Positions 3,964 to 6,220 of a DNA stretch of 64,000 nucleotides are shown here, one piece after another (position 1 is the stretch's first letter; the number at the start of each line of letters is the position of its first letter). This DNA is from Candidatus Gastranaerophilales bacterium (lineage in GTDB: Bacteria; Cyanobacteriota; Vampirovibrionia; Gastranaerophilales; Gastranaerophilaceae). The stretch lies in contig CALUTI010000007.1 of the NCBI GenBank assembly GCA_944323695.1, forward strand, positions 1 through 64,000, given 5' to 3'. The position numbers and the translations under genes are program-made. The notes below the pieces were generated by a model. That model searched no databases. It was not told the DNA's origin and was given only the letters and a program-made list of their open reading frames with translations.

Positions 3964-4296
3964 CTAGTCTTTCATTATACCGAGAGCATCAAAAAATATG
4001 CCCTCTTCCATTACCTCATTATATAAATCTTCATCCTTTTTGAAATCCTCCATTGTATAAGGATAAAGGTCTATACAAACATTCATTTCGGTTTCTATTT
4101 TTCCGATAATCGGCCAGATTTCTTCACGTTTTGCCTTGTCTTCGGTGTCAAAAATTGCGACGAGTTCGATATCTTCACCTTCATGGTTTTTGCCGTCCAA
4201 AAATTGGCCGAAAAGATAAATCCCTTTGAAATCATCAAATTTTTTTCTAAGAGATGAAGTTAATACTTTTATGACGTCGTGTACCGGACTTGTCAT
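3964..4296 (-). CDS. Degenerate nucleotidyltransferase-like protein
   Basis: This 110-residue protein has the layout of a minimal nucleotidyltransferase (MNT-type): helix, then GIYLFGQFLDG, then EDIELVAIF, then a strand with CIDLYPY. In active family members these positions read GSxxxG and D-x-D. Here the Ser is Gln and the acidic pair reads E-D-I-E, so activity is doubtful. It overlaps hisS by 4 bp (ATGA-type junction at 4293-4296), which indicates translational coupling. No HEPN partner gene is adjacent, so a MNT/HEPN toxin pair is not supported. Confidence 0.65.
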   Translation of the reverse strand: MTSPVHDVIKVLTSSLRKKFDDFKGIYLFGQFLDGKNHEGEDIELVAIFDTEDKAKREEIWPIIGKIETEMNVCIDLYPYTMEDFKKDEDLYNEVMEEGIFFDALGIMKD

Positions 4297-5528
4297 AATA
4301 TACTCCTTAATTCTTGTCTTGAAACGGTTTTTTGCTCTCCTGTTGCAAGATTTTTTACGGAAACTTTTCCTGCATTAATTTCATCTTCGCCCAGAATTAG
4401 AGCGTAATCTGCAACCTTTGAGGCCTTTTCAAGCTGTTTTGTAAATTTTTTATTACTTAAATCGAATTCTATATTGTATCCATTATTTCTTAGTTCTTCC
4501 GCAAGTTCAAAAGCATCAACCGGAGAATTAGAAACAATATATCCGTTAAGTTTTTTGGGCTGAGGTACAGACAAAAGTGAGTTTAATCTTTCCATACCCA
4601 TTGCCCAGCCGACAGCAGGTGTGTCATCACCGCCAAGATTTCTTACCAAACTGTCATAGCGCCCGCCGCCGCAGACTGCATTTTGTGAGCCTAAGTTGTT
4701 TGATTTAATTTCAAAAACGGTTCTGTTATAGTAATCTAAACCTCTTACCAAAAGCTTATTTACTGTGTATTTTACATTTAGCTTATCAAGGTAAGTCTTT
4801 AATTTTGAAAAATGTTCTGCACATTCTTCACAAATATAGTCAGATTGGATAACTTTTTGGATTTCCGGTTTTTCAAAAATAGCTTTGCAGCTTTCAACTT
4901 TACAATCCAAAAGTCTCAACGGATTTTTTTCATATCTGTTTTTGCAGTCATCACAAAGGTTTTCAAATTCAGGTTTTAAAACTTCTTTAAGTCTTGTTTT
5001 GAACTCTTCACGGCATTTTGGGCAGCCAAGAGAATTGATTTCCACTTCCAAATCATTTAAACCTAGTGATTTCAAATAATTAACTGCCATTAAAATAACT
5101 TCAGCATCTGCAGTTGGTTCTTTTACTCCGAACATTTCGACACCAACCTGATGAAATTGCCTTTGTCTGCCTTTTTGCGGTCTTTCGTATCTGAACATCG
5201 GACCTTTGTACCATAATTTTACAGGCGGAGACAATCTTGCCATTCCGTTTTCAATGTATGAGCGAACAACGCCGGCTGTGTTTTCCGGACGTAAAGTCAG
5301 TGATCTGTCGCTTTTTTCAAAAGTATACATTTCTTTATTTACGATATCGGTTGTATCTCCGACACCGCGGGCAAAAAGTTCCGTTGCCTCAAAAATTGGT
5401 GTTCGGATTTCTTTATAACCGTATCTGGTAAAGATTTTCAGGGCATTTTCTTCCAAAATATGCCACTGATCAACTTCTTGAGGTAAAATGTCATGTGTAC
5501 CTTTGATTACATTGATAATTTTTGTCAT
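4293..5528 (-). CDS. hisS: Histidyl-tRNA synthetase
   Basis: At 411 residues this is a normal-length class II HisRS that charges tRNA-His. Motif 1 lies around IRTPIFEATELF, motif 2 around FRYERPQKGRQRQFHQVGVE, and the histidine-specific signatures LVRGLDYYNRTVFE and GGGRYDSL are intact; the C-terminal anticodon-binding domain begins near residue 325. It starts with KGTHDILP, typical of the family. It heads a three-gene minus-strand unit with the two small genes below it. The 370-bp region upstream holds the candidate ncRNA on the other strand. Confidence 0.97.
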   Translation of the reverse strand: MTKIINVIKGTHDILPQEVDQWHILEENALKIFTRYGYKEIRTPIFEATELFARGVGDTTDIVNKEMYTFEKSDRSLTLRPENTAGVVRSYIENGMARLSPPVKLWYKGPMFRYERPQKGRQRQFHQVGVEMFGVKEPTADAEVILMAVNYLKSLGLNDLEVEINSLGCPKCREEFKTRLKEVLKPEFENLCDDCKNRYEKNPLRLLDCKVESCKAIFEKPEIQKVIQSDYICEECAEHFSKLKTYLDKLNVKYTVNKLLVRGLDYYNRTVFEIKSNNLGSQNAVCGGGRYDSLVRNLGGDDTPAVGWAMGMERLNSLLSVPQPKKLNGYIVSNSPVDAFELAEELRNNGYNIEFDLSNKKFTKQLEKASKVADYALILGEDEINAGKVSVKNLATGEQKTVSRQELRSIL

Positions 5529-5618
5529 AAATTGATTATAGTAATTTAAGTTTTAATTGTCAATCATTTTTCAAACAAAATGCTTTTCGGTATTTATTCA
5601 TAATATTTCCTAAAAATG

Positions 5619-5647
5619 TTGACTTTGATTTTAATATTTGGTATGAT
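5619..5647 (+). promoter_or_regulatory. Sigma-70 promoter of the candidate ncRNA
   Basis: TTGACT at 5619-5624 and TATGAT at 5642-5647 are separated by 17 bp, which is close to consensus. No protein gene follows on this strand before 6322, so the promoter most likely serves the structured RNA that starts near 5654. Confidence 0.75.
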
Positions 5648-5653
5648 AATGAC

Positions 5654-5848
5654 GAGGGAAAGCTCCAAACCTCCTCCGACACAGACTTGTTATGAGGATT
5701 AAGGCGGAAAGGGGGTGATAATATCTTATGGTTTTCAGTATTACTGAAAAAGCACTATGGCTTATATTAATAATACTCATAGTGCTAAAAATCAAAAGAT
5801 AGGGAGTTATGAAAGCTCTAAAGGAAACCACCCTTTAGGGCTTTTCCC
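5654..5848 (+). ncRNA. Candidate structured small RNA (about 195 nt)
   Basis: An independent transcript is indicated by the promoter just upstream and the terminator-like hairpin at its end. The RNA can fold extensively: 5' AGGGAAAGCTC pairs with 3' GGGCTTTTCCCT to close the molecule; TATCTT (5728 region) pairs with AAGATA (5796 region) around two perfect 8-bp hairpins, TTTTCAGT/ACTGAAAA and GCACTATG/CATAGTGC. No credible open reading frame lies inside on this strand. A long closed rod with internal loops is compatible with 6S RNA, but conserved 6S features cannot be checked by eye. The family is unknown. Confidence 0.55.
5812..5845 (+). terminator. Terminator-like hairpin at the ncRNA 3' end
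   Basis: AAAGCTCTAAAGG (5812-5824) pairs with CCTTTAGGGCTTT (5832-5844), followed by a short T/C-rich run. GAAAGCTC also occurs at the RNA 5' end, so the 3' arm could pair with either, giving two exclusive folds. Confidence 0.55.
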
Positions 5849-5899
5849 TATATATTCATTATAACTCCTTTTTTTATAATGTCAACTGTAGAACCTTTA

Positions 5900-6220
5900 T
5901 TAATGTTTTTTGTTAATTATCGCATCAAGAATCGGTTCAATGTAATCTAAATCCTTATCGCTGAGCATTTTGAGTTTCAAAATAATATTATTGATTCTGG
6001 AAGGTTCTTTTTTACTAAAAGAAAATAGCTCGTTATAATCTATTTTGAAATTTTTGTGAATTTTTTCAAGGGTTTCTGCGGATGCAAAATTAACGCCTCT
6101 TTCAAGTTCGGATAGCGAATGACGGCTGATTCCGATTATTTCTGCAAATTTTTCCTGCGATAATTTCAGGTTTTTTCTCAGTGTTTTAATTTTTAGTCCT
6201 AGCTGCTTTTTTACATTCAT
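5900..6220 (-). CDS. XRE-family transcriptional regulator
   Basis: The 106-residue protein has a complete Cro/C1-type helix-turn-helix in residues 5-60 (LGLKIKTLRKNLKLSQEKFA, then IGISRHSLSELERG). The C-terminal 45 residues are helical and may form a dimer interface; ILDAIINK at the end is a small repeat-like helix. It is transcribed away from the LuxR-like gene at 6322. A perfect 12-bp inverted repeat four bases upstream of its ATG is a likely autoregulatory operator. No phage genes flank it. Confidence 0.85.
   Translation of the reverse strand: MNVKKQLGLKIKTLRKNLKLSQEKFAEIIGISRHSLSELERGVNFASAETLEKIHKNFKIDYNELFSFSKKEPSRINNIILKLKMLSDKDLDYIEPILDAIINKKH

Follow-up and report, generated by a model that had tools for sequence, protein, structure and literature searches.

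According to PMC12390103, in the sections compared here, the type I toxin-antitoxin systems on record had all come from Proteobacteria, Firmicutes and Tenericutes until msoT1/msoA1 of Microcystis aeruginosa was offered there in 2025 as a first candidate in Cyanobacteria. For its antisense RNA, binding is predicted at the 3' end of the coding sequence and in the 3' UTR, and MsoT1 is a 63-aa peptide with two predicted membrane helices (PMC12390103). In the Bacillus subtilis systems bsrG/SR4, txpA/RatA and yonT/SR6 the antisense RNA engages the toxin mRNA in its 3' part, with refolding or RNase III decay as the outcome (PMC12390103, PMC5848175), and the membrane-peptide mRNA of hok/Sok is silenced by end-to-end folding and an antisense RNA (PMC6733600, PMC12390103), Sok targeting the ribosome-binding site of the overlapping mok leader frame (PMC12390103). 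The compared sections of PMC6733600 describe aapA/IsoA of Helicobacter pylori as an mRNA of about 200-225 nt for a short hydrophobic peptide, silent in its full-length form through 5'-3' long-distance pairing and sequestration of the Shine-Dalgarno (SD) sequence, with a cis antisense RNA of about 80-105 nt and several diverged loci per genome, each antisense RNA being reported as specific to its own message through paralogue divergence; the IsoA3 promoter lies within the aapA3 ORF, and IsoA3 masks the SD region.

The element described here lies beside hisS in the genome of a Candidatus Gastranaerophilales bacterium; the window is the whole 64,000-nt stretch of DNA that was analysed. With a probability of roughly 0.82, it is one of five copies in its own genome of a type I toxin-antitoxin-like module, made up of a folded mRNA for a 24-residue hydrophobic peptide and an antisense RNA. 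In favour of this reading are parallels in design with aapA3/IsoA3 and the features that type I systems have in general. The element resembles aapA/IsoA in all the traits of mRNA, folding, antisense length and copy number listed above, the 5'-3' pairing being supported by covariation and the silencing predicted, but its antisense RNA would start in the 3' UTR and end inside the ORF before the SD, so that the antisense promoter lies outside the ORF and the SD is left uncovered. The comparison with aapA/IsoA, which belongs to a different phylum, is by published description. Hok is a peptide of about 50 aa, compared with 24 aa for the peptide in the window, and no counterpart of the mok leader frame was noticed here in an unsystematic inspection. 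The likeness to the B. subtilis systems, also from a different phylum, and to msoT1/msoA1, from broadly the same phylum, lies in where the antisense RNA meets its target; their descriptions, in the parts compared, mention no 5'-3' lock of this kind. Peptides of the present family, at 21-38 aa, fall under the length of about 60 aa that marks small hydrophobic type I ORFs and are shorter than the two-helix MsoT1 and the 58-aa yonT product.

The element beside hisS

The features of the element, with the evidence for each, are as follows.

5602-5611, + strand: upstream box AATATTTCCT, common to the five copies in this genome (pattern search)
5619-5647, + strand: sense promoter TTGACT-17-TATGAT, extended -10 (promoter scan)
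5656-5666, + strand: 5' strand of the 5'-3' lock, GGGAAAGCTCC, pairing with 5803-5808 and 5846-5848 (permutation test, pair counts)
5669-5717, + strand: SD-sequestering hairpin, in which the anti-SD ACCTCC-TCCG (5669-5678) pairs with CGGA...GGGGGT; SD at 5711-5717 (covariation, 105 and 24 copies)
5728-5802, + strand: ORF of 24 aa, MVFSITEKALWLILIILIVLKIKR, ATG at 5728, stop TAG at 5800-5802 (translation)
5745-5851, - strand: predicted antisense RNA of about 105 nt, with predicted start and end (promoter, terminator, fold)
5747-5785, - strand: antisense terminator within the ORF, hairpin 5785-5752, T run 5751-5747 (81/81 copies; synonymous-codon control)
5803-5808, + strand: 3' strand of the lock, immediately 3' of the stop codon (permutation test, pair counts)
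5814-5842, + strand: 3'-UTR hairpin, 5814-5824 with 5832-5842 (all 11 pairs changed on both sides, 24 copies)
5846-5848, + strand: CCC closing the outermost pairs with 5656-5658 (paired in 24/24, invariant)
5858-5885, - strand: antisense promoter TTGACA-16-TATAAT, 12/12, read 5885-5858 (promoter scan)

With the ORF and the opposite-strand promoter included, the element extends from about 5602 to 5885. The original prediction had placed it opposite hisS; hisS is the ORF at 4293-5528 (- strand), and the element sits in the intergenic region divergent from it, without overlap. A small helix-turn-helix gene (5900-6220, - strand) adjoins the element.

The sense promoter that had been read at 5619-5647 is present, scoring 10/12 with a TG ahead of the -10, and scores at least 9/12 in 55 of 81 non-redundant copies from relatives; the transcript would start near 5654. 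A structure of about 195 nt with a closing stem had also been proposed, and positions 5653-5852 do fold at -66.4 kcal/mol with the 5' and 3' ends paired (z -5.5; 0/200 shuffles equally good). On paper the two exclusive folds that had been suggested can both form, as the longer segment 5653-5880 adopts a 3' stem and U run that displace the 5'-3' closing stem (z -5.5). The two inner hairpins were located at about 5732-5750 and 5752-5785, and the second reads as the terminator of an antisense RNA from the opposite strand. The 24-codon ORF and the perfect TTGACA-16-TATAAT on the opposite strand had been overlooked in the earlier reading. A discrete structured transcript with alternative folds is borne out at the level of sequence, and its assignment as an unassigned non-coding RNA is not, as the element reads as a tiny-peptide mRNA with an antisense partner.

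Rfam searches agreed with the earlier statement that the RNA fits no recognised family. At gathering level the window contained two tRNAs and no other match; a permissive scan of the site gave a lowest E of 1.0, with no match attaining its gathering score; and eight relatives gave only animal microRNA and histone models, below gathering scores, which we took as chance. The suggested 6S-like shape found no support, with no 6S match in either search, and on these results 6S, riboswitches and other known RNAs were rejected.

Copies in related genomes

Among 99 related genomes searched at the DNA level, 29 had matches, in many cases at more than one place in the genome, and these often covered only the 5' domain and the vicinity of the minus-strand promoter; three of the matches (L031, L032, L033), inspected by eye, contained no element and were left out of the count. 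R1, a covariance model built on the 5' domain, detected the element in at least 61 of 191 genomes of the family (E 0.001). It also detected it in 46 of the 146 genomes making up an order sample (two of the 46, G067 and G074, belonging to a second family) and in 40 of the 244 genomes of a phylum sample, every one of these 40 in the window's family. With a broader model (R2) it was found in at least 78 of the 191 family genomes (E 0.0001), with up to eight copies each, in 69 of 240 genomes of a class sample, all within the window's family, and in five copies in the window's own genome. The counts vary with the model, and stricter filters were applied to the large sets, so that the R1 and R2 counts are lower bounds. 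No match was found in phage or plasmid collections; two viral contigs met a 5'-domain pattern, but the covariance model found no element there and they were treated as chance.

The same anatomy recurs among 122 located copies from Candidatus Gastranaerophilales relatives, a set from which repeats of the same place were removed and in which near-identical copies from different genomes were retained. Four further copies, L003 from the window's own genome and L022, L025 and L027, were observed outside this set. An ORF rule placed the ORF at the same position in 111 of the 122; the other 11 were frameshifted, had lost the start, were extended or were cut by the locus end (L145_477), or, in L134 and L159, had a short ORF without GGG within the allowed distance, and they were excluded from the lock permutation and from the antisense promoter and terminator, sense-terminator, peptide, G-U and codon counts. 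A redundancy filter (shared 10-mers under 35%) reduced the 111 to 81 copies, among which L051 was assigned a wrong start and frame because the rule favoured ATG (read from its GTG, it resembles class A, below), so that frame-dependent counts may be off by one. Tandem copies a few hundred bases apart, often of differing peptide classes, were seen in L083, L071, L056, L066, L126 and L053.

Within the 1.73-Mb genome of the window, the box AATATTTCCT followed by N{3,10} and TTGAC has five matches, all upstream of the five copies (the other four at G000:C3:173899, C3:195191, C7:110636 and C10:26907), compared with one match for a reversed-pattern control. Across relatives it lies upstream of 19 of the 122 copies and so marks only part of the family. 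The box could be the site of a shared regulator or a relic of the spread of copies.

The position beside hisS is itself variable. hisS was found in 15 of the 16 genomes of the genus, and model searches placed a clear copy next to it in two of these 15, the window's genome and G013, whose copy encodes another peptide, belonging to class B. G009 has a HisS of 96% identity and retains both hisS and a similar helix-turn-helix gene, but by eye only a AATAATTCCT remnant, and no element, lies between the two. A weak model match in L174 (14.5 bits), about 600 nt from the hisS start, was discounted.

Folding of the sense RNA

The original prediction had named compensatory base changes in the stems as support, and such changes were found across the copies. 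In the SD hairpin, 91.3% of cells were paired in an alignment of 105 copies that the covariance model had fitted to the structure, with changes on both sides in 106 cells compared with 23.5 in shuffles. For the lock, partners such as GGGTAAGCTCC with TAGGGAGTTAAG, GGGTAGTACC with TAGGGTACTAAG, GGGTAGACC with TAGGGTCTGTAA, GGGTAAGTTCC with TAGGGAACGAAG and GGGTAAGCCCC with GGGGCTTTT change together, and over the 81 copies own partners paired at a mean of -9.71 kcal/mol, compared with about -6.7 for swapped partners; none of 10000 permutations attained the observed mean. In a full-length alignment of 24 copies of our own choosing from the 81, 91.2% of cells of the full structure were paired and 16 of 29 pairs had changed on both sides, and sliding the partners by 1-3 columns reduced pairing to 43-65%. 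The outermost GGG-CCC pairs are invariant and therefore contribute no covariation support. Only 29 of the 81 copies had an intrinsic terminator for the sense RNA in their 3' region, which counts against the reading given here and makes the sense 3' end tentative. The loop of the SD hairpin (5679-5692 in the window) carries a strongly conserved ACACAGACTTGTTA-like sequence unexplained by pairing, and class B copies carry another conserved form there.

The strong fold and long closing stem would suit a 6S-like or other regulatory RNA whose ORF is accidental. We consider this scarcely credible, as Rfam gave no match to the RNA at gathering level in the window or in the eight relatives and none that was credible at the site, the SD and the position and length of the ORF are conserved across copies despite nucleotide changes, the other two reading frames contain stops in 81/81 and 63/81 copies, and a genome can carry as many as eight copies.

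The peptide

The encoded peptide has exactly 24 aa in 56 of the 81 copies, and in 72 of 81 it contains a strongly hydrophobic 15-residue stretch (above 1.6). Three recurrent classes were seen: A (consensus MKFSITEKALWLILLIIIALKFIK), B (MKREIIKSAIIVLIALLKIILLFL), and C, a 32-aa peptide with PELELLELFLNS at its end. Differences rank third, then first, then second codon position in each class, consistent with a coding sequence; in class B, 2127 synonymous and 9513 non-synonymous differences were counted, which speaks against our reading. The stop codon TAG abuts the GGG that opens the 3' structure in the majority of copies of classes A and B. In class A ORFs (5732-5750 in the window), a small inverted repeat spans the FSITE codons (TTCAGT..ACTGAA or TTCTGT..ACAGAA), and by eye a silent change of the Thr codon accompanies the Ser/Cys swap.

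Five peptides compared with Pfam and NCBIfam had no match above cut-off, and sub-cut-off matches were limited to two of the five. One class B-like peptide matched the NCBIfam SbtA RiPP precursor model weakly (E 0.059), which might hint at a bacteriocin, a modified peptide or a secreted signal made from a precursor whose expression the antisense RNA controls. That is very improbable, since the score of 13.1 bits is far under the cut-off of 30.5, the neighbours in the window are hisS and the small helix-turn-helix gene, and no leader or cleavage site could be recognised by eye in 24 aa.

A small membrane protein that is not a toxin, for example a stress peptide or regulator whose target is a membrane complex, would have an identical anatomy of locked mRNA and antisense RNA, and the TEKAL core that is invariant in class A could be an interaction motif. 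We regard this as unlikely, though the most plausible of the alternatives, because the copies are multiple, patchy, diversified and at times decayed, with the frame broken or the start lost. Control this tight, by a locked mRNA together with an antisense RNA, is moreover typical of toxic peptides. The multi-copy, patchy distribution and the decayed copies argue instead for the type I-like module.

The predicted antisense RNA

A type I system has an antisense RNA with its own promoter that is complementary to the toxin mRNA, and at the level of sequence both are found here. The antisense promoter, whose -10 stands 7-12 nt from the CCC, beyond the 3' hairpin, scores at least 9/12 in 80 of 81 copies compared with 18.5% of dinucleotide shuffles, and at least 10/12 in 95.1% compared with 2.9%; in 13 copies it is perfect. 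The predicted RNA of the window folds into two hairpins at -36.4 kcal/mol (z -5.2).

A terminator for this RNA lies inside the ORF in 81/81 copies, with a mean of -15.0 kcal/mol compared with -3.6 for resamples using synonymous codons, and in 80 of 81 copies at most 10% of 30 such resamples were equally good; an identical scan of the sense strand gave a mean of -4.5 kcal/mol. G-U pairs in the ORF hairpin favour the antisense strand by 104 to 29, a comparison that leans that way as the hairpin was picked on the antisense strand, and those in the 3'-UTR hairpin, which is free of such picking, favour the sense strand by 185 to 35. Because G-U pairs function on one strand only, these opposite biases suggest that both strands are selected as RNA. 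To judge from the copies compared, a single stretch of DNA is under three simultaneous constraints, from the peptide code, the antisense terminator and the mRNA fold.

A model for the module

The sense strand would yield an mRNA of about 200 nt encoding the hydrophobic 24-aa peptide, which is probably directed to the membrane. Within the full-length molecule the 5' end would pair both with the 3' end and with the bases that immediately follow the stop codon, the anti-SD would hold the SD in a hairpin, and lock and sequestration together would leave the message silent from birth. From the opposite strand, a stronger promoter situated immediately beyond the 3' end would drive an antisense RNA of about 105 nt, spanning the 3' UTR and the 3' strand of the lock and running through most of the ORF, within which it would terminate. 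This RNA would pair with the mRNA, most likely starting from exposed hairpin loops, and RNase III-type cleavage of the duplex would keep the peptide low. As the antisense RNA ends before the SD, duplex decay or refolding is likelier than direct blocking of the ribosome. One point counts against the scheme: because the antisense RNA covers the 3' strand of the lock, its pairing could release the lock if the duplex were to persist. The trigger would be scarcity of the antisense RNA, or trimming of the mRNA 3' end and opening of the lock, upon which the peptide would be made and would act on the cell's own membrane. Divergence among paralogues in the hairpin, the lock and the peptide would keep each antisense RNA specific to its own message.

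Significance

The family of 5'-3'-locked mRNAs and their antisense RNAs is best read as a new type I toxin-antitoxin-like family. In the portions of the open-access literature consulted on type I systems, toxin-antitoxin systems and antisense RNA in Gastranaerophilales, Melainabacteria, Vampirovibrionia and cyanobacteria, nothing was found on this family of peptide genes, and no such system was found described for these bacteria. The case illustrates that an orphan structured RNA can turn out to be a tiny mRNA, and the covariance models can be used to find more genes of a kind that annotation overlooks.

For these gut bacteria, non-photosynthetic relatives of cyanobacteria, the result is a large, diverse, multi-copy family, each part of which is backed by comparative controls. 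A bolder and more doubtful proposal is that the locked-mRNA/antisense peptide toxins of Gastranaerophilales form a bank under common control, a single regulon. Every copy in a genome would share an upstream box, here AATATTTCCT, each antisense RNA would serve only its own message as peptide, lock and hairpins have diverged, and the antisense RNA, with its terminator encoded in the codons of the peptide, would be both silencer and the switch that releases the lock. If true, it would give type I modules an architecture undescribed in those parts of the type I literature with which it was compared.
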